Source: Pseudomonadota bacterium
GTDB lineage: Bacteria; Bdellovibrionota; Bacteriovoracia; Bacteriovoracales; Bacteriovoracaceae
DNA: 64,000 nucleotides
Direction: 5' to 3'
NCBI GenBank assembly: GCA_027488375.1
Contig: JAIYBW010000004.1
Coordinates: 434,001-498,000 of the forward strand
The translations under genes and the position numbers were made by a program. This document shows, one piece after another, positions 26,579 through 33,029 of this stretch. The notes under the pieces were generated by a model. The model was given only the letters and a program-made list of their open reading frames with translations, had not been told where the DNA came from and did not search any database. Position 1 is the stretch's first letter; every line of letters begins with the position of its first letter.

Positions 26579-27073
26579 ATGCCATCATTTGATTTAGTAT
26601 CTAAGATTAATGAAATGGAACTCGCGAATGCTCTTCAGAATACTGAGAAACAAATTCAAGGTCGATTTGATTTCAAAGGATCTGACGCCAAAGCCGACTA
26701 TAAAGAGAAAGAAAAGGTTATTGAGATTGTCGCTGAAGGTGAAATGAAAGTTAAGGCCATATTGGATATACTACGTACCAATATGGGGAAACGTGGAATC
26801 TCGACTAAAGGAATGAAGGAATCTGAAATTACATCTTCAGGCCTTAAGAATAAAAAATTAACTCTTACTTTAGTCACTGGTTTTGATAAGGATGCTCAAA
26901 AGCTCATGAACCGACTCATAAAGGAAAGTGGCTTTAAAGGTAAGAGTCAGTATATGGATGAAAAATATCGAATTGAATCAAAAAGTATTGATGAACTTCA
27001 GGCCCTCTTTCAATTCTTAAGAACCCACAAAGAAATGAATCTAGAACTTAATATGGAAAATATGAAACGATAA
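26579..27073 (+). CDS. yajQ: YajQ-family nucleotide-binding protein
   Basis: Full-length (164 residues) YajQ-family protein with the conserved start MPSFDLVSKIN...ELANAL, the TEKQIQGRFDFKGS block, a KGISTKGMKE-like segment and the C-terminal QALFQFLRTHK. Members bind nucleotides, and some bind cyclic di-GMP and control virulence genes. Two PilZ proteins elsewhere in the window make c-di-GMP signalling plausible here. GGACGAACT precedes the ATG, 9 bases after proA, so it is probably part of the same transcript. Confidence 0.93.
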   Translation: MPSFDLVSKINEMELANALQNTEKQIQGRFDFKGSDAKADYKEKEKVIEIVAEGEMKVKAILDILRTNMGKRGISTKGMKESEITSSGLKNKKLTLTLVTGFDKDAQKLMNRLIKESGFKGKSQYMDEKYRIESKSIDELQALFQFLRTHKEMNLELNMENMKR

Positions 27074-27087
27074 TAAAGGAGTCTCCC

Positions 27088-27507
27088 ATGTCAGCAACAC
27101 CGATGATGGATAAAGTGAATAGCGATATTAAAGAAGCGATGAAGGCCAAGCAACAAGAAAGACTTGATGCCCTCCGAATGCTTAAAGCAGAATTCATTAA
27201 AAATAATACGGCTTCAAAACCAACTGATGAACTCACAATCACTGTGGCCCACGCTAAACGTCTTCAGGACTCTCTCGAAATGTATCAGGCCGGAACAGAG
27301 GCCCATGATAAAATCATTAAAGAACTTGCCGTGATTAAGGAATATTTACCTTCAGAAATGGGTGAAGCTGAAGTCGTAAAACTGATTCAGGATATCAAAG
27401 CAAAAGGTGCTAAAGATATGGGATCAATCATGAAAGAACTTCAGCCTCAGATCAAAGGTCGCTTTGATGGCAAGAAAGCCTCAGATCTTGTGAAGGCCAA
27501 TTTATAA
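27088..27507 (+). CDS. yqeY: GatB/YqeY-domain protein
   Basis: A small helical YqeY protein of 139 residues, related to the tail domain of amidotransferase subunit GatB. Recognisable blocks are ALRMLKAEF, the central helix ending IKEYLPSEM and the C-terminal GSIMKELQPQIKGRFDGKKASDLVKANL. It is thought to assist tRNA-linked reactions, but its exact role is unknown. AAAGGAG precedes the ATG with good spacing. The next gene starts within its stop (TAATG). Confidence 0.92.
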   Translation: MSATPMMDKVNSDIKEAMKAKQQERLDALRMLKAEFIKNNTASKPTDELTITVAHAKRLQDSLEMYQAGTEAHDKIIKELAVIKEYLPSEMGEAEVVKLIQDIKAKGAKDMGSIMKELQPQIKGRFDGKKASDLVKANL

Positions 27508-28154
27508 TGGCGATTCAGGATTTTGGAGAGCATTTTCAGTTAGGAAAACTTTACAAGGCCCAGGAATGGGCCAAAGAAATCACCTATCAAATCTCATCCC
27601 AAATTGAGGCGGGGATGACCGAAGATCAGGGTCAAGAGATTTATAAAAAGATTTGTCTTGAATCGGGTATTGAGAAAAATTGGCATCCTCCAAAAATTCG
27701 CTTTGGGCCCAATACTCAAAAATCTTTTAAAGAAAATTCTGATCCTTATTTACTGAAAGAAGAGGATATTTTTTTTATTGATATCGGACCTGTCATCGAT
27801 GGGCATGAAGCCGACTATGGTGAGACTTTTTGGCTCGGTCAAAATTATGAAATAAGAAAAATTGCGGAGTCTTCAAAAATAATTTTTGGCCAGGCCCGAC
27901 AGTTCTGGTATGAGACCAATTGTACGGGGCCAGAGCTGTATGAACACGCTAAAGAATTGGCCTCTCGCATGGGTTACAAACTCAATATGGGTAGCGATGG
28001 GCACCGTATAGGTGATTTTCCTCACCACCCTATTTTTCGTGGACCCATTATTGAATGCCTAGAAAAAATTCAACCCGATGCCTGGATTTTAGAAATACAG
28101 CTCGATCACCCACACCTCAAAATCACCTCATTCTATGAAGATATTTTAAAATAA
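27507..28154 (+). CDS. M24-family metallopeptidase-like protein
   Basis: A compact pita-bread (M24) protein of 215 residues. The metal ligands appear as D92 and D103 (FIDIGPVIDGHEADYGET, the usual 11-residue spacing), H166 in SDGHRIGDFPHH, E196 in LEIQLDHP and possibly E211. This suggests a two-metal aminopeptidase or a creatinase-like hydrolase. It is shorter than methionine aminopeptidase (about 250), so the substrate is uncertain. No signal peptide is present. Its ATG overlaps the yqeY stop, and the aminotransferase follows after 10 bases, making a likely amino-acid metabolism unit. Confidence 0.78.
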   Translation: MAIQDFGEHFQLGKLYKAQEWAKEITYQISSQIEAGMTEDQGQEIYKKICLESGIEKNWHPPKIRFGPNTQKSFKENSDPYLLKEEDIFFIDIGPVIDGHEADYGETFWLGQNYEIRKIAESSKIIFGQARQFWYETNCTGPELYEHAKELASRMGYKLNMGSDGHRIGDFPHHPIFRGPIIECLEKIQPDAWILEIQLDHPHLKITSFYEDILK

Positions 28155-28164
28155 AAGGACCCGT

Positions 28165-29280
28165 ATGAAGTACGTTAGAATGCCCATAGAAATTGAATCT
28201 CCTGAACAAATGGGATATTCCACGATCAAGAACAATCTTTCAGAAAGTTCTTATACCGATACCATATTTAAAAATCTTAATCTTAATATGAATGAGCTCG
28301 TGATCTGTTATGGGGATCATGTGGGTCATCCAGGACTAAGAGCTGAAATTCTCAAGGGAGAAAGTGGCAATCTTGGGCTAGATGATGTTCTTGTGACTGC
28401 CGGTGCAGCATCAGCACTTTTTATCGTCTCCACCTCTCTCCTCGAAGCCGGTGATGAGTTAGTCGTCGCCAAACCTAATTATGCCACCAATATCGAGACT
28501 CCTAAGGCAATTGGTGCCAGTATTAAATATCTTCCGATGACGTTTGAAAATAATTTCCAGGTTGATTTAAATGAGCTTAAAAAACTAATCACCCCTAAAA
28601 CCAAGCTTGTTTCACTCACCTGCCCTCATAACCCTACGGGAACTATGATTTCGGAGGCAGATTTAAAAGAAATTATCAAAATAGTAGAAGCCTCAAATGC
28701 ATTTCTTCTCTTTGATGAAACCTATCGAGACATGTCTTTTAAATTTAAACTCCCAATAGCTGCGAGCTTATCTGATCGAGTTATTTCGGTCTCCTCGCTT
28801 TCTAAAACCTATGGTCTTCCGGGTATTCGTATTGGTTGGCTCATTACTCAAAATAAAAAGCTTCAAGATCTTTTCCTCGCTGCTAAAGAGCAAATCTTTA
28901 TTTGTGGCTCAGTTGTTGATGAGGAGATTGCCTACCGGTATCTTGCGAGACGAAATGATTATTTCCCAGCAATTAAAAAAGATATGCTAGAAAAATTTGA
29001 GATCACTAAGAAATGGATGAATCAGCAAAATATATTTGAATGGATTGAACCATCAGGTGGTGTTGTCTGTTTCCCGCGCTTCAAAAAAGACTTTCATTTT
29101 GATAGCGAGAAGTTTTACCGCATTCTTCTAGAAGACTACAAAACTTACGTTGGCCCAGGACACTGGTTTGAAGAGTCTGACCGTCATTTTCGACTGGGAT
29201 TTGGGTGGCCGACTCAGAATGAACTCCTCAACGGCCTCAAGGCGCTAGAGCAAGCAGCCCAAGCCTCGCTCAAATCGTGA
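28165..29280 (+). CDS. Class I/II PLP-dependent aminotransferase
   Basis: An aspartate-aminotransferase-fold enzyme of 371 residues. The PLP lysine is in SVSSLSKTYGLPGIRIGW; TCPHNPTGTMI and LLFDETYRDM provide the phosphate- and ring-binding Asn/Asp. The carboxylate-binding arginine is probably in RHFRLGFGWP. It may act on an amino acid in the proline/glutamate neighbourhood, but specificity cannot be read from sequence. Related proteins include aminotransferases of unusual arginine-derived residues. AGGACCCGT precedes the ATG. It is probably the last gene of the proB-led run. Confidence 0.85.
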   Translation: MKYVRMPIEIESPEQMGYSTIKNNLSESSYTDTIFKNLNLNMNELVICYGDHVGHPGLRAEILKGESGNLGLDDVLVTAGAASALFIVSTSLLEAGDELVVAKPNYATNIETPKAIGASIKYLPMTFENNFQVDLNELKKLITPKTKLVSLTCPHNPTGTMISEADLKEIIKIVEASNAFLLFDETYRDMSFKFKLPIAASLSDRVISVSSLSKTYGLPGIRIGWLITQNKKLQDLFLAAKEQIFICGSVVDEEIAYRYLARRNDYFPAIKKDMLEKFEITKKWMNQQNIFEWIEPSGGVVCFPRFKKDFHFDSEKFYRILLEDYKTYVGPGHWFEESDRHFRLGFGWPTQNELLNGLKALEQAAQASLKS

Positions 29281-29332
29281 CTTTTTTTCATGGTTTATTG
29301 AGCCAAAGGCAAATCTGAAGTATGTTTTGAGT

Positions 29333-29587
29333 ATGAAAAATCATAAAAAAATATTTTTAGTGCTCACTTCAGCTTTTATCCTCAATCTCGCTCAGGCTTC
29401 TGACAACTGCCTCGAACAGAGAAATTTGATAAATGAGGTGAGTGAAAAAACAAATGCCTCTATCATCCTAGAGGCAACTTCTATCCTGACCAGCGCAGGT
29501 AGCAACATTGAATTATCTTCTGAAAATACTGATAATCTAAGTGTTCCAAAGAGTGTTAATAACTCATCAAGACTTTCCGAAATCTAG
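29333..29587 (+). CDS. Small secreted protein, 84 aa, unknown
   Basis: Not recognised. MKNHKKIFLVLTSAFILNLAQAS is a good signal peptide. The mature 60-residue part has one cysteine and is rich in Ser, Asn and Glu with no aromatic core, so it may be disordered. No convincing ribosome-binding site is visible before the ATG (the bases before it are TATGTTTTGAGT), which lowers certainty. It ends 10 bases before the hairpin that terminates the opposite-strand peptide gene. Confidence 0.5.
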   Translation: MKNHKKIFLVLTSAFILNLAQASDNCLEQRNLINEVSEKTNASIILEATSILTSAGSNIELSSENTDNLSVPKSVNNSSRLSEI

Positions 29588-29590
29588 TAT

Positions 29591-29615
29591 AAAAAAAGCC
29601 CCCAATTCTGGGGGC
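29591..29615 (-). terminator. Intrinsic terminator of the 34-aa peptide gene
   Basis: GCCCCC (29598-29603) pairs with GGGGGC (29610-29615) around a 6-base loop. On the minus strand the stem is followed by seven T. It starts 4 bases after the stop of the 34-residue reading frame, marking that frame as the end of a transcript. It may also serve the plus-strand gene weakly. Confidence 0.85.
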
Positions 29616-29619
29616 CTTA

Positions 29620-29724
29620 TTACCTTTTAATCTGACTTGTTACTCTTCGATATGAAAAATGCTGAAAAGTTAGCGTTGTAAGTGTCATTGAGATGAGTCC
29701 TGTTAGTACCACTATCATTTCCAT
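29620..29724 (-). CDS. 34-aa single-pass membrane peptide under a sigma-54 promoter
   Basis: Too short for standard gene calling. A perfect Shine-Dalgarno (AAAAGGAG) lies 8 bases before an ATG that opens 34 codons: MEMIVVLTGLISMTLTTLTF, then QHFSYRRVTSQIKR. Residues 3-20 form one hydrophobic helix, followed by a basic cytosolic tail with an Arg pair. A sigma-54 promoter (29804-29821) and a short leader lie upstream and an intrinsic terminator immediately downstream, so the unit stands alone. The 36-residue peptide at 30555-30665 has the same plan and similar sequence (ME-M start, helix, RR). I know no named family. Function is unknown; a membrane-stress or complex-modulating peptide is a guess. 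Confidence 0.75.
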   Translation of the reverse strand: MEMIVVLTGLISMTLTTLTFQHFSYRRVTSQIKR

Positions 29725-29770
29725 TTGATTGACTCCTTTTGATAATCAATTGGCTTCTTGCCTGTTCCAA

Positions 29771-29791
29771 AGTTTACCATCCTAGTAAACT
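29771..29791 (-). promoter_or_regulatory. Leader hairpin with GGA in the loop
   Basis: On the minus strand AGTTTAC pairs with GTAAACT (7 bp) around the loop TAGGATG. It would sit within a few bases of the predicted transcript start. AGGATG in a hairpin loop resembles the CsrA/RsmA recognition element; this is an inference. AGGATGGTA also occurs in the other leader (30784-30792). Confidence 0.45.
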
Positions 29792-29803
29792 CTCTTCTTA
29801 ACT

Positions 29804-29821
29804 AAGCATAAATCATGCCAA
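29804..29821 (-). promoter_or_regulatory. Sigma-54 (-24/-12) promoter of the 34-aa peptide gene
   Basis: Read on the minus strand the site is TTGGCATGATTTATGCTT. The GG and GC dinucleotides are exactly 12 bases apart, as sigma-54 requires (consensus TGGCAC-N5-TTGC). A start about 12 bases downstream, near 29794, gives a leader of about 70 bases. The second unit has a near-identical site at 30823-30840. Confidence 0.75.
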
Positions 29822-29870
29822 GAAAAAGACTGAAAATTGATTATTTTAAGTAACAAAATGGCACTAGGAC

Positions 29871-29897
29871 AAAAAAAAAGGGCCACCAAAGTGGCCC
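29871..29897 (-). terminator. Strong intrinsic terminator after the 182-aa secreted protein
   Basis: On the minus strand GGGCCAC and GTGGCCC form a 7-bp GC-rich stem with a 4-base loop, followed by nine T. It lies 20 bases after the stop of the 182-residue gene and about 50 bases before the next sigma-54 promoter, so it separates the two tandem units. Confidence 0.92.
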
Positions 29898-29917
29898 TAG
29901 CTTTAAGAAAACGCTGA

Positions 29918-30466
29918 TTAATTCTTCCAAACTTCCTTATCACAATAATTGAGTTCCCCGTCGAAAGTAAAAGACATCAACTGGTAGCTCTTTTTGCCAG
30001 ATTTGGCCTTCTCATTAAAAATGAGGTAACTGCCATTGCCCCCACCAACTCCAACGTTAAATCGAATAAGCTTTAAATTATCTCTTCCAGATAAAGAGAG
30101 CTGCTCTACAGTCATATCATCAATGAATTCTTGAAAAATAGACACACGACTGGCCCCACGATCGGCCATATCATAAATATCTAAGTTATTTAAAACTTCA
30201 GAAATAAGGAGGCTATCAAATTTAGAAAGGATAGTTGCGAGCTCTTTTTTTGATGTTTCCGCTGGAGAAATGGTCTCGAGAACTGTTTTTGTGACCTTGA
30301 ATTTAACTTTCTCGTAATCCTCATGAGTGAGGCACTTCCCTATATAACGACTAGAACCATCAGGCATATTTCTGTAAGCAGTTCCCATATCTTCAGTGCT
30401 GGACATATCTTGAGCAAAAGCGCCTCCCCAAACAAATAGGCCCATCACAAAAAGTGACTTCATCAT
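29918..30466 (-). CDS. Secreted protein of unknown function, 182 aa
   Basis: Not recognised. A signal peptide (MMKSLFVMGLFVWGGAFAQ) is followed by an acidic start and a helical middle (about 45-115). The C-terminal part has a glycine-rich turn, FNVGVGGGNGSYLIFNEKAKSG, then ends with ELNYCDKEVWKN. Two cysteines (KCLTHE and NYCDK) could pair. AAAGGAG lies 5 bases before the ATG. It starts 88 bases after the 36-residue membrane peptide gene on the same strand with no terminator between, so both are probably read from the sigma-54 promoter at 30823-30840. A role with that peptide in the envelope is inference. Confidence 0.72.
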   Translation of the reverse strand: MMKSLFVMGLFVWGGAFAQDMSSTEDMGTAYRNMPDGSSRYIGKCLTHEDYEKVKFKVTKTVLETISPAETSKKELATILSKFDSLLISEVLNNLDIYDMADRGASRVSIFQEFIDDMTVEQLSLSGRDNLKLIRFNVGVGGGNGSYLIFNEKAKSGKKSYQLMSFTFDGELNYCDKEVWKN

Positions 30467-30554
30467 AGAATCTCCTTTAAAATTGGGGAGAATCTATACT
30501 CTGGTGATTAAAACTGAAAGGGGGATGGAAAATTCTACAATTTGGGCCAGAGAA

Positions 30555-30665
30555 TTAGGAATTTCGATAAAGTTTATTTCGTCGGGACAGAAATCGATTA
30601 AAGACGAGACCGATAAATGTGGTAGAACCAATAATAACCCCAAGACATAATAGCATGTTTTCCAT
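30555..30665 (-). CDS. 36-aa single-pass membrane peptide under a sigma-54 promoter
   Basis: TTAAGGAGTGAT immediately precedes an ATG opening 36 codons: MENMLLCLGVIIGSTTFIGL, then VFNRFLSRRNKLYRNS. There is one membrane helix (about 4-22) and a basic tail with an Arg pair, the same design as the 34-residue peptide at 29620-29724. Aligned end to end they share the ME(x)M start, a Gly-Ile/Leu core and the RR position. A sigma-54 promoter lies about 160 bases upstream. The 182-residue secreted protein follows in the same direction. No known small-protein family is recognised (it is not KdpF- or CydX-like). Being a repeated, well-signalled frame raises confidence that it is translated. Confidence 0.73.
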   Translation of the reverse strand: MENMLLCLGVIIGSTTFIGLVFNRFLSRRNKLYRNS

Positions 30666-30684
30666 ATCACTCCTTAATAAAAAT

Positions 30685-30700
30685 GGTTCTTCCATGAACC
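30685..30700 (-). promoter_or_regulatory. Leader hairpin with GGA in the loop, second unit
   Basis: On the minus strand GGTTC pairs with GAACC (5 bp) around the loop ATGGAA. It lies 20 bases before the start codon of the 36-residue peptide, close to its ribosome-binding site, itself a GGA motif. The arrangement fits CsrA-type translational control; this is inference. Confidence 0.4.
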
Positions 30701-30822
30701 GGATGGGGCCCTAACCTTGGACTCTCCACCGCTCTTTTTCCTTGAGGCTGTCTTAAAATTTTTTAATAAGTTCAAATTTGATCTACCATCCTGGCGGACC
30801 TCACTTGTTCTTATAAATCAAT

Positions 30823-30840
30823 AAGCAGTTTTCATGCCAA
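30823..30840 (-). promoter_or_regulatory. Sigma-54 (-24/-12) promoter of the 36-aa peptide unit
   Basis: On the minus strand TTGGCATGAAAACTGCTT has GG and GC exactly 12 bases apart. The first nine bases are identical to those of the promoter at 29804-29821. A start near 30813 gives a leader of about 150 bases, which holds the conserved AGGATGGTA box at 30784-30792 and several other GGA triplets. Confidence 0.78.
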
Positions 30841-30853
30841 TACTAGAGTGAAA

Positions 30854-30937
30854 GGATTCATCATTTTTGGTGTCAATTAGACCGCCTCAAGAGTATTTGG
30901 GGCCAGTCTGGGGTGCTAAAAAGAATCCGATGATGAA
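30854..30937. repeat. Dyad upstream of the sigma-54 promoter, possible enhancer site
   Basis: GGATTC (30854-30859) and GAATCC (30923-30928) are inverse copies. So are TTCATCAT (30857-30864) and ATGATGAA (30930-30937), and T5/A5 runs add to the match. The dyad spans about 15 to 100 bases upstream of the -24 element, where a sigma-54 activator would bind. The rest of 30841-31033 shows no gene. Confidence 0.4.
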
Positions 30938-31033
30938 ACTCAATTAGAAAAAATATAAAGGCTGTTAGGAAGTTTCAGAAAAAAAAACAATTGGCCTCTT
31001 GTAGAGTTCACTCAAGCATGAAACCATATTAAA

Positions 31034-31052
31034 AGAACACAGAACGTGTTCT
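31034..31052. promoter_or_regulatory. AGAACAC/GTGTTCT palindrome, possible operator
   Basis: AGAACAC at 31034-31040 and GTGTTCT at 31046-31052 flank the spacer AGAAC, giving a 7-bp dyad 27 bases before the 86-residue gene. The nested GAACGTGTTC resembles GAAC/GTTC-type repressor sites such as some LexA boxes, but no family is assigned. Confidence 0.45.
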
Positions 31053-31079
31053 GATATTTCGACTAGGAGGGTGAGAAAA

Positions 31080-31340
31080 ATGAGTCCGCACTACTACTTG
31101 ATGAAAAACAAAAAAATCTTAAGACTTGAATCAGACATGTCTTTTACTTCCCTCTCATCAAATATCCAAGAACGATGTTTTGACTTCAGCCGAGAATCCT
31201 CTATGAATCAGGAACAGGCCAACTGGCGCGTGGTCCTTTTTAGAGATGAAATTATGGAGATTGAAGAATACCAAGAGTGGCTTCAATCCCCGGAAGCTCT
31301 TATTGAAGAAGATTTTGAATATGATCTTATTGCCAATTAA
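31080..31340 (+). CDS. 86-aa protein of unknown function upstream of a sigma factor
   Basis: Not recognised. The frame starts at the ATG 9 bases after a perfect AGGAGG; a GTG directly on that site is excluded by spacing. The product is cytosolic and acidic at its C-terminus (EEYQEWLQSPEALIEEDFEYDL), with a basic N-terminal stretch (MKNKKILRL). It lies just upstream of the FliA-type sigma factor (126 bases apart) and downstream of the 31034-31052 palindrome. A regulatory partner of the sigma factor is possible; there is no motif to support it. Confidence 0.65.
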   Translation: MSPHYYLMKNKKILRLESDMSFTSLSSNIQERCFDFSRESSMNQEQANWRVVLFRDEIMEIEEYQEWLQSPEALIEEDFEYDLIAN

Positions 31341-31466
31341 TGATGGCATAAAATCAATAAAATCCTTATTCTAGGAATCTGAAATGACTAAAATCCAATA
31401 GCTTAGAGGTATCGTCCGCTTCTCTCTCAAAATCATGCGACAATCAGAGCTCATCTGGAGGTCCAT

Positions 31467-32168
31467 GTGAGCGAGAAAATTAATCCCCAAGACTCTTCTC
31501 GGCAGGAAATCATAAAAAATTTTATGCCGACCATTCGCTACTGGGCCAAGCATTTTCACTATCAGTATCATCAGGTCTTAGATTTTGAAGACTTAGTCAT
31601 GGTTGGGGTCATTGGACTTATCGATGCCATGAATAAGTACAAGAAAGATAAGAAAAATCAGTTTAAAACTTACGCAGAATTCAGAATTAGAGGTGAAATT
31701 ATTGACGAGCTTAGAAAACAAGATTGGATGACTCGTTCTGAGAGGACAAAACAAAAGAAATATAAAAGGGCCAAGAAAAATTTAACTGAAGAGCTGGGAA
31801 GGTCTCCAACATCTGAAGAAGTTTCTAATGTTTTACATTTTAAATCGAAGGACATGATACGTCTCGAGCAATATGAAACAGGAGATACAATTAAACCCTA
31901 TGTTGAAGGTGAAACTTTAACTCAATATCCAGCCTCTAACGAGATAGAAAACTACACTTTAAAGAAGACACTTTCTGTTGTGATGGATGAGCTACCTAAA
32001 ACAATGCGACTCATCCTGGTCTTAAAATATTTTGAAGATTTAAATTTTCATGAAATTTCCAGTGTTGTGAATTTATCTGAAGGAAGAATTTGTCAGCTCC
32101 ACGCAGAAGCTCTAGAACTTTTAAAGGATAATCTGGAGAATCAGAAAGTCGACATCCTTGCTGCTTAA
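31467..32168 (+). CDS. Sigma-28 (FliA/WhiG-type) RNA polymerase sigma factor
   Basis: A 233-residue sigma-70 family protein of the FliA group. Region 2 is visible in HQVLDFEDLVMVGVIGLIDAMNKY and KTYAEFRIRGEIIDELRKQDW. Region 3 includes RSERTKQKKYKRAKKNLTEELGRSPTSEEV, and region 4 ends in FEDLNFHEISSVVNLSEGRICQLHAEAL, a helix-turn-helix for the -35 box. FliA factors drive flagellar and chemotaxis genes; no flagellar genes are nearby, so the regulon is unknown. It starts at a GTG with GGAGGT 6 bases upstream; the overlapping ATG would hit a stop at once. No anti-sigma FlgM is recognised nearby. Confidence 0.9.
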   Translation: MSEKINPQDSSRQEIIKNFMPTIRYWAKHFHYQYHQVLDFEDLVMVGVIGLIDAMNKYKKDKKNQFKTYAEFRIRGEIIDELRKQDWMTRSERTKQKKYKRAKKNLTEELGRSPTSEEVSNVLHFKSKDMIRLEQYETGDTIKPYVEGETLTQYPASNEIENYTLKKTLSVVMDELPKTMRLILVLKYFEDLNFHEISSVVNLSEGRICQLHAEALELLKDNLENQKVDILAA

Positions 32169-32797
32169 AGATTTTCTTTCTTTATCACGGAGCTAAAATC
32201 ACCACTTCGAGCTGAAAGAGTGGAAGAAACCCATTTACGAAAAAAAGCCAACATATGATCTTCAACATTTTTGGCTTCAAGAATCCCTAGGGCATAGGCA
32301 GTGGCTTCAAATGTTGAAACCCAATCGGGACGAGGAGCTTTTCTCAGTTTATATTCAGCGATGAGATTTGGTGGAAGCTTAACACTCTGAATGGTGTCAA
32401 ATTTAGCTTCACGCTTTTTAACTTGCTTCGCCTGATTCCAGTTTCCATCAGGGACAATTAAATGATAAGGCCCAGGAAAATTTGTTTTAAATGAATCATT
32501 TAATTCAATTGAATTTTCATCTGGAAATAAAAATAAAGGACGACCACTTCTTTCAATGATCGGATCAGGACTAAAATGATCATTAACTCTGCCTCTAATA
32601 AAGATCCTGGCCTCAGAAGGAATTAGTTTTTCCACAAACTGAGCTGTGTTGGATGTGAGCTTAAGCTCACTCACGTGGACAATTAAAGAAACATTTGTAC
32701 TCACTTTGATTGATTTTAGATCATCGCAGACACAAAAATAATGATTGATCCGACAATTAGGACATCGATTGTGGTGAGAGGCCCGTCTTTGGCTCAC
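32165..32797 (-). CDS. DTW-domain protein, second paralogue
   Basis: A 210-residue DTW-domain protein of the TapT tRNA aminocarboxypropyl-transferase family. A zinc-knuckle-like CPNCRINHYFCVC opens it, and the signature appears as PDGNWNQAKQV (DxNW rather than DxTW). KLRKAPRPDWVSTFEATAYAL follows near the end, as in E. coli YfiP/TapT. It starts at a GTG inside the stop of the alcohol dehydrogenase remnant (GTGA overlap) with GAGGAG about 7 bases upstream. The other copy at 4862-5593 has DGTW and a longer basic tail, so the two may modify different tRNA positions. Confidence 0.87.
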   Translation of the reverse strand: MSQRRASHHNRCPNCRINHYFCVCDDLKSIKVSTNVSLIVHVSELKLTSNTAQFVEKLIPSEARIFIRGRVNDHFSPDPIIERSGRPLFLFPDENSIELNDSFKTNFPGPYHLIVPDGNWNQAKQVKKREAKFDTIQSVKLPPNLIAEYKLRKAPRPDWVSTFEATAYALGILEAKNVEDHMLAFFRKWVSSTLSARSGDFSSVIKKENL

Positions 32798-32958
32798 GAT
32801 ATCGCTCCTCTTAAAATTTCTTTCAAATGATCTAACGTCATACTATCACATTCACCTAAGGTTGCTACCCCCGCGATCTTGAAATCGTTTGATATCTTCT
32901 CAATTCTTCCCTGCCCAAAAAGAATTTTGGTTGCGTTATAAAATTCAAAATTTTCCAT
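32794..32958 (-). pseudogene. Iron-containing alcohol dehydrogenase remnant, internally deleted
   Basis: The 54-residue frame opens with MENFEFYNATKILFGQGRIE, the start of iron-containing alcohol dehydrogenases (BdhA/YqhD type). After about 32 residues it jumps to TLGECDSMTLDHLKEILRGA, which looks like the extreme C-terminus of such enzymes (L-T-x-D-x-x-x-I-L-x-x-A). Some 320 internal residues, with NAD and iron sites, are missing, so it cannot be an active enzyme. The start codon, a GAGG site and the reading frame survive, and the stop overlaps the DTW start. The remnant may persist to feed ribosomes into that gene. The N-terminal match is strong; the C-terminal one is suggestive. Confidence 0.6.
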
Positions 32959-33029
32959 AAACAAAACCTCAACTTTAGTTTTCATTTACCTAGCAATGAC
33001 CTATGCTTTAGACATTAAGGAGTTTACTC

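Follow-up and report, generated by a model that had tools for sequence, protein, structure and literature searches.

Candidate CsrA-binding decoy RNAs that may also encode membrane peptides, behind sigma-54-type promoters in the Bacteriovoracaceae

A 64,000-nucleotide stretch of contig JAIYBW010000004.1 (positions 434,001 to 498,000; assembly GCA_027488375.1, from a member of the Bacteriovoracaceae), here called the window, carries two tandem units on its minus strand, and they raise the question of what they would be transcribed for: the small peptide that each can encode, or the RNA that precedes it. The upstream unit, T2 (30840-30555), has a sigma-54-type promoter, a leader of ∼150 bases and, behind an AAGGAG ribosome-binding site, a frame of 36 residues, and is followed by a 182-residue frame and a terminator-like hairpin; the downstream unit, T1 (29821-29620), has its own promoter, a leader of ∼70 bases, AAAAGGAG, a 34-residue frame and a terminator-like hairpin. 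The tandem units had been noticed in an initial annotation, and this observation is confirmed: both promoter sequences, both frames with strong ribosome-binding sites, and terminator-like hairpins behind T1 and behind the 182-residue frame are present as it had described (Table 1). Its description of the locus as a small-protein system is half of the picture: the peptide frames are present, but the leaders were missed, and an RNA with GGA hairpins is the most constant element. We consider it probable that the T1 and T2 RNAs act as CsrA-binding decoys and at the same time as mRNAs for predicted membrane peptides; the decoy part of this proposal is made because of the GGA-loop hairpins, the covariation of the first hairpin, the constancy of T2, and the csrA–fliW and RpoN genes of the genome. 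Sequence and comparison give the promoter sequences, a covarying AGGAU hairpin, conserved ANGGA elements in T2, a common order of FliA-like gene, T2 and T1, and selection on the T1 peptide.

Both promoters have the elements and the GG/GC spacing of TGGCAC-N5-TTGC, which we take to be the sigma-54 consensus, and the genome encodes RpoN (one match to its DNA-binding domain). A strict pattern, TGGCATGNNNNNTGCTT (TGGCATG-N5-TGCTT), has two exact matches in the 3,218,503-base genome, both at this locus. The pattern TTGGCAYGNNNNNTGCTT has 117 matches in the 58 genomes scanned (a total summed from the table) versus three for a reversed-pattern control, with at least one match in 46 out of 58 genomes; judged by this control, the promoter sequences are not chance matches. 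If a slightly looser promoter is required to have AGGAYGG 14-44 bases downstream, 22 out of 26 genomes of the genus match by pattern (control: 0), corrected to 21 out of 26 as the match in G023 is due to chance. Such promoters need an activator, as the initial annotation had pointed out, and the genome has 15 matches to the sigma-54 activator domain (PF00158). The weakest of these may represent other ATPases, and PF00158 matches are also present in all 14 control genomes.

Reading downstream of the promoter sites gave 45 units, or 44 after a chance match (L073) was dropped (25 of type 1, 19 of type 2). Both types have a hairpin, H1, near the expected transcription start, in which a loop of AGGAU (or AGGAC, AGGAA) sits on a stem that varies from unit to unit. 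Its pairing was evaluated on an alignment of promoter plus H1 with 41 out of 45 rows (L073, L029, L047 and L064, a near-duplicate of L058, were left out): over 40 distinct rows, eight pairs are formed in 83.4% of the cells versus 64.6% after shuffling, and the covariation score is 0.569 versus 0.255 after shuffling and at most 0.245 when the partner is slid by 1-3 columns (the slid controls remove relatedness, the shuffle controls do not). For two of these eight pairs, 15 out of 40 rows each are unpaired, because an internal mismatch sits differently in the two types. Constancy of the loop is no evidence because the set was picked by AGGA[TCA]GG; the changes in the stem do count.

The two types differ downstream of H1. 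Type 1 leaders have a second hairpin, H2: in 17 out of 22 leaders a GGA lies in or beside the loop of the best hairpin, and its arms form 16 different pairs over the 22 leaders (e.g. GGC/GCC, UUCGC/GCGAA, AUC/GAU, CUC/GAG and UUC/GAA); the T1 of the window is among those whose H2 has no GGA (GGC-AAGAA-GCC). Type 2 leaders share a conserved core of three hairpins, H3 (CUCANGGA..GAG), H4 and, just before a T-rich tract, H5 (GGUUC-ANGGAN-GAACC). In an alignment of this core with 16 out of 19 rows (L029, L047 and L064 left out), H4 has compensatory changes (at one pair, A-U in nine rows and G-C in five).

GGA triplets are found in hairpin loops far more often than in shuffled sequences. In minimum-energy folds compared with dinucleotide shuffles, 54 out of 94 GGAs of the 19 type 2 RNAs are in loops (shuffles: 8.45 ± 2.7, maximum 15), as are 26 out of 86 GGAs of the 22 type 1 leaders (of 25) that have a peptide frame (shuffles: 10.1 ± 3.1, maximum 21). 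Both sets had been selected via GGA-bearing patterns, and therefore a second test used sites picked by promoter only: the 166 bases downstream of each of the 66 distinct sites listed as strong sigma-54 sites for the 26 genomes of the genus. Together they have 49 GGA loops that contain an A and are closed by four or more pairs, versus 8.8 expected from shuffles, and at least one GGA-loop hairpin is found at 29 out of 66 sites (random stretches from the same loci: 0.17 each). The hairpins are distributed unevenly among classes: 16 at eight type 2 sites (1.8 expected), 19 at 18 type 1 sites (3.0 expected), seven at two sites before DksA-type genes (0.5 expected), seven at the 25 remaining sites (2.8 expected) and none (0.8 expected) at 13 sites of a third RNA class, T3 (see below). 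Over 5.0 kb of leaders there are 26 six-base ANGGAN loops with four closing pairs, a count inflated by H5 being part of the type 2 definition, compared with 16 over 128 kb (the window read on both strands); for each of eight other loop triplets the leaders give between 0 and 6. Several hairpins with A-N-GGA loops, as in known decoys, are thus present in the class, in modest number in the copies of the window: one out of three GGAs is in a loop in T1 (one GGA hairpin), and three out of five in T2 (three GGA hairpins).

CsrA is restrained by decoy RNAs (in many Gammaproteobacteria) or by the protein FliW. In the genome, a csrA gene (76 codons, HREE at residues 43-46 of the protein) directly adjoins fliW and a gene whose product has a flagellin N-terminal domain; residues L4 and R44, which we take to be important for RNA binding, are both present, so a cognate CsrA for a decoy is encoded. 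Within the genus, csrA is found in 24 out of 26 genomes (the two without it are drafts of 84 and 59% completeness), fliW in 17 out of the 18 genomes searched, and T2, csrA and fliW together in 15 out of 18. The part of a 2020 review drawn on here gives the CsrA consensus from systematic evolution of ligands by exponential enrichment (SELEX) as RUACARGGAUGU, with the GGA in a hairpin loop of usually six bases, and describes classic repression as cooperation of a site in an upstream hairpin with a site over the Shine-Dalgarno sequence (PMC7652899). H5 (C-ANGGAN-G) and a hairpin found before DksA-type genes (CACUC-AAGGAU-GAGUG) are close to the SELEX core, and T1, with an upstream GGA hairpin and a GGA in its Shine-Dalgarno sequence, has the pattern predicted for a CsrA-repressed leader.

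Is the RNA or the peptide the conserved part? A covariance model of the T2 core (R2, trained on 16 of the T2 units) has exactly one match in each of 23 out of 26 genomes of the genus, matches 33 out of 129 genomes of the family (E ≤ 0.01), and has no match outside the family in a 191-genome sample of the phylum (E ≤ 0.001). A T2 frame, taken as one that lies downstream of H5, has a ribosome-binding site and codes for 24-60 residues of hydrophobic character, is detected in 12 of these 23 genomes and undetected in the other 11, which keep the RNA; the mean R2 scores are 77.7 and 76.8 bits, respectively. As the scores are alike with and without a detected frame, the RNA is independent of the frame and is the constant part of T2. 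The initial annotation had reasoned that promoters kept beside broken frames would speak against its proposal: this is what is found for T2 in the 11 genomes, but not for T1. In six of the 11, a terminator-like hairpin starts within ∼140 bases (G001, G005, G017, which is the weakest, G018, G020 and G022). A broader model of promoter plus H1 (R1, the weak matches of which may be promoters alone) matches 118 out of 129 family genomes (E ≤ 0.01), with four matches in the genome studied here, and 81 out of 191 genomes of the phylum sample (E ≤ 0.001), of which 43 belong to the family and 38 do not (best E-value among the latter: 8.0e-8).

These numbers bear on the alternative that survives best, although we think it unlikely: T1 and T2 could be ordinary CsrA-repressed leaders of a sigma-54 regulon that act only in cis, with no decoy in trans, and a T2 without a frame would be a remnant. 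The same type of leader does precede unrelated genes (encoding DksA/TraR-type, 84-residue, 89-residue and ∼490-residue proteins). A remnant should decay, however, yet the R2 means hardly differ, and six of the 11 RNAs that would be remnants have a terminator-like hairpin.

Lower still we rate the possibility that the GGA hairpins bind another partner (a different RNA-binding protein, the ribosome or a small ligand), with T2 as a novel cis element. It would fit with a T2 core (GAGCGAUG..AAGG..CAUC) that is conserved beyond the GGA loops, and with the Rfam scan, in which nothing scored above a family cut-off, CsrB, CsrC, RsmX, RsmY and RsmZ included, either in window positions 27000-33000 (E ≤ 5) or in 13 related loci (E ≤ 0.5). 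But the loop and its closing pairs resemble the published CsrA consensus, and csrA is found in nearly all genomes of the genus.

The peptide frames look like genuine genes, and the two peptides are related to each other. Twenty-two aligned type 1 peptides have the consensus MEMMxVLxGLMxMMxxSLxLQxxSYxKVxV, and a comparison of the type 1 and type 2 family profiles gives a probability of 90.5, which bears out the earlier claim that the two units code for similar membrane-type peptides; of the RR tail claimed with it, the basic character holds but not the strict RR (KK, RK and KR are seen in relatives). A T2-like frame (MENMLLGTGIFML...) is found in L060/L278, and in G079 the T2 RNA is followed by a type-1-like peptide. 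Conservation with synonymous changes had been proposed as a check on the frames, and the ratio of nonsynonymous to synonymous divergence (dN/dS) is indeed low, ∼0.09-0.29, for close type 1 pairs (dN and dS: 0.114/1.25, 0.061/0.361, 0.040/0.387 and 0.175/0.610), with dN 0.031 and dS 1.16 for the closest type 2 pair. The comparison covered 150 type 1 pairs with identities of 50% or more, drawn from 27 distinct peptides, and four type 2 pairs, drawn from 10; only close pairs are quoted because dS is undefined or saturated in many distant pairs, and the T1 peptide of the window has distant partners only (e.g. dN 0.39, dS 1.29). By this measure of codon change, the T1 peptide is under purifying selection. 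The acidic start, single hydrophobic helix and basic tail suggest, by the positive-inside rule, an N-terminus outside and a C-terminus inside.

Peptides of this length, with one hydrophobic helix and a basic tail, also recall type I toxins, the structured leaders of which would hold translation low: five genomes have two copies of the T1 peptide in the locus, and the T1 ribosome-binding site of the window is partly paired in the predicted fold. We find this very unlikely, as the promoter is of the regulated sigma-54 type and the locus is fixed beside the FliA-like gene, not scattered. Chance or an annotation artefact can be dismissed almost with certainty: short frames and GGA triplets are each common, but the promoter control, the covariation, the codon selection and the synteny in the genus all stand against it.

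Returning to CsrA decoys that are also mRNAs, we note several points that weigh against this proposal. R2 has no match in three out of 26 genus genomes (drafts of 76-89% completeness), and R1 gives weak matches also in the 38 genomes outside the family. The pairing of H3 and H5 has no support from covariation, because both stems never vary, and the inner stem of H4 is one base out of register in several rows of the T2 alignment (79.7% of the cells paired). The T2 core is conserved beyond the needs of a mere decoy. With one GGA hairpin in T1 and three in T2, the decoy capacity in this genome is modest. Finally, the proposal draws on sequence and comparison, and we infer the steps beyond them.

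If the T1 and T2 RNAs are decoys and mRNAs, they could work as follows. An enhancer-binding protein together with RpoN would switch both units on. The T2 RNA, which in this species has three GGA-loop hairpins and the GGA of the ribosome-binding site, would bind more than one CsrA dimer and so relieve CsrA-repressed mRNAs, alongside FliW. On the T1 mRNA, CsrA would repress the peptide by bridging the AGGAU hairpin and the GGA in the ribosome-binding site, and the peptide would be made only after decoys and FliW have soaked up CsrA. Both peptides would cross the inner membrane once and leave their basic tail in the cytoplasm; that they act on a membrane complex of the motile (attack) cell is a weakly supported guess. 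H5 itself looks like a terminator (a five-pair stem followed by a T-rich tract), at the same place in the window and in relatives; CsrA on the H5 loop might determine whether transcription stops there, giving a short decoy RNA, or continues into the peptide frame.

Table 1. Features of the T2–T1 locus in the window
Feature	Position	Strand	Remark
Sigma-54-type promoter of T2, TTGGCATGAAAACTGCTT	30823-30840	-	start expected near 30813
T2 hairpin H1, GGUCCGCC-AGGAU-GGUAGAUC	30780-30800, loop 30792-30788	-	stem covaries across units; loop constant by definition of the set
T2 hairpin H3, CUC-AAGGA..-GAG	30731-30748	-	stem invariant, no covariation support
T2 hairpin H4, GGUG..CAUC with inner GUCC-type stem	30702-30730	-	compensatory changes
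T2 hairpin H5, GGUUC-AUGGAA-GAACC, then T-rich tract	30685-30700	-	stem invariant; also terminator-like
Ribosome-binding site of T2 peptide, AAGGAG, itself containing GGA	30670-30675	-	
36-residue T2 peptide frame, MENMLLCLGVIIGSTTFIGLVFNRFLSRRNKLYRNS, stop included, AAGGAGT before it	30555-30665	-	
182-residue frame, variable cargo between the units, start resembling a signal peptide when judged by eye	29918-30466	-	
Terminator-like hairpin behind the 182-residue gene	29879-29898	-	
Sigma-54-type promoter of T1, TTGGCATGATTTATGCTT	29804-29821	-	start expected near 29794
T1 hairpin H1, GAGUUUACU-AGGAU-GGUAAACUU	29770-29792, loop 29783-29779	-	
T1 hairpin H2, GGC-AAGAA-GCC	29752-29762	-	loop here without the GGA present in most relatives
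Ribosome-binding site of T1 peptide, AAGGAG	29733-29738	-	
34-residue T1 peptide frame, MEMIVVLTGLISMTLTTLTFQHFSYRRVTSQIKR, stop included, AAAAGGAGT before it	29620-29724	-	
Terminator-like hairpin of T1	29595-29618	-	
89-residue conserved gene, divergent from T2	31071-31340	+	
FliA/WhiG-type sigma factor gene, conserved neighbour of T2	31467-32168	+	TIGR02479, 183.4 bits, just below the cut-off of 189.6

The neighbourhood is constant as well: T2 is followed by T1 on one side, and on the other side, pointing away from it, are first the 89-residue gene and next the FliA-like gene. Among the 23 genomes with an R2 match, the 89-residue gene adjoins T2 in 22 and the FliA-like gene in 21 (the misses are at contig ends), and 20 have T2 and T1 on the same contig and strand (G014 via the R2 match). 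The two units are on separate contigs in G001 and G011, whereas G002 retains T2 alone, followed by a hairpin and a peptide that resemble those of T1. A near-perfect inverted repeat, AGAACACGTTCTGTGTTCT, at 31034-31052 between the 89-residue gene and T2 is a possible operator. The 182-residue protein has 52 homologues and no Pfam match (a weak MrpR_N_CB match of its relative P0005 is below the cut-off and was disregarded). Its gene lies between the units in seven out of 23 genomes (some stretches stop at contig ends) while both units persist, and the earlier suggestion that the peptides act on this secreted protein is therefore rejected.

Leaders of the same kind reach beyond the locus. The genome has a DksA/TraR-type gene behind a sigma-54 promoter and a GGA-hairpin leader (G000:C5:15503-15567; L259:2068, minus strand), with eight GGAs before the start codon, one of them in the loop of CACUCA-AGGA-UGAGUG; the product scores 82.6 bits with NCBIfam DksA (below the cut-off of 115.5) and above the cut-off with Pfam zf-dskA_traR. 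DksA/TraR-type genes in the genus and in family relatives (recognised by eye) are among the strong R1 matches in the family, and other such matches precede other small or secreted-looking proteins. Two loci of genus g3 (L226 and L227) have ∼490-residue secreted-looking proteins behind a sigma-54 site and an AGGAU hairpin leader, and in Bacteriovorax sp. BSW11_IV (L134) a leader of this type precedes a gene that is DksA-like by eye. In a pattern scan of a named genome collection, 80 out of 116 stretches were taken as loci and eight of the 80 were looked at; most of the stretches listed are in unrelated phyla and, by their titles, are probably chance. The loci L119, L138 and L153 correspond to contigs from G006, G020 and G008, respectively.

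Other transcripts may start at the strong sigma-54 sites of the genus. T3, found at 13 out of 66 sites by pattern (nine aligned; loci L008:1501-1680, L018, L020, L023, L027, L039, L050 and L009), is ∼150 bases long with a GAACUCCA..AAGUUC hairpin; its ends can pair (GCAGAGG/CCUCUGC), several copies have a terminator-like end, no frame was seen, and five of the eight loci were scanned with Rfam and gave no match above cut-off. It looks a little like a 6S-type closed RNA. A recurrent small gene (..KTIHRYR..; 115 residues in L021 and L024) lies behind strong sigma-54 sites in L021, L024, L298, L302, L304 and L309, with a short leader that has no GGA hairpins. Thirteen weak Rfam matches in window positions 27000-33000 (among them STnc430 and, across the T1 terminator, Phe_leader with 37.5 bits against a cut-off of 55) and three in the 13 related loci, all below cut-offs, were judged to be chance.

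How do these RNAs relate to known systems? Like CsrB/CsrC and RsmX/Y/Z, they have several GGA-loop hairpins, and T2 occurs without a detected frame in 11 out of 23 genomes, six with a terminator-like hairpin; unlike them, they have few GGA hairpins, a sigma-54-type promoter and no Rfam match in the scanned stretches, a peptide frame follows in 12 out of 23 genomes, and the genome has FliW. The nearest experimental parallel, as far as the sources drawn on here go, is the flaA mRNA of Campylobacter jejuni, described in the part of PMC4894983 used here as a target and titrator of CsrA beside FliW. Here too an mRNA is predicted to be repressed by and to titrate CsrA in the company of FliW, RpoN and a FliA-type sigma factor; however, the RNA here is dedicated, its peptide of 30-36 residues is not flagellin, the frame is undetected in 11 genomes, and the promoter is of sigma-54 type. 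As in dual-function small RNAs, one small transcript is predicted to be both regulator and peptide mRNA, whereas those described in the portion of PMC10339803 consulted regulate by base pairing; the same portion of this 2023 paper names a decoy combined with a small mRNA among the kinds possibly still to be discovered. The attack-phase RNAs of Bdellovibrio, including merRNA, and its FliA regulon (PMC3627812, in part) offer another regulatory RNA of a predator lineage with a FliA-type sigma factor, but merRNA carries a riboswitch for cyclic diguanylate; in the text of this paper as available to us, a word search finds no mention of CsrA, RpoN or sigma 54. In the literature on CsrA, FliW, Bdellovibrio and dual-function RNAs, covered at the level of listings and with few subscription papers, we came across no account of these RNAs. 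A sigma-54 promoter, a leader with CsrA motifs and a membrane-peptide frame would be a new combination.

Extended to the family, the proposal becomes more tentative, slightly short of an even chance in our estimate: the Bacteriovoracaceae would have a family of sigma-54-switched RNAs that are CsrA decoys and membrane-peptide mRNAs, act with FliW on one CsrA pool, and are wired to a FliA-type sigma factor and to a DksA-like regulator with the same kind of leader. The part of the 2020 review drawn on here states that joint action of FliW and small RNAs in any species remains to be determined (PMC7652899). A csrA–fliW genome that has RNAs with decoy features, some with a conserved peptide frame, makes both this question and that of a decoy combined with a small mRNA testable. 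If the proposal is true, bacteria with FliW would have a second, RNA-based layer of CsrA control. The genus is inferred from its family to be predatory, and the RNAs would give a handle on regulation in likely predators that are mostly known from metagenome assemblies; they also put a name to a family of small proteins that annotation may well overlook.

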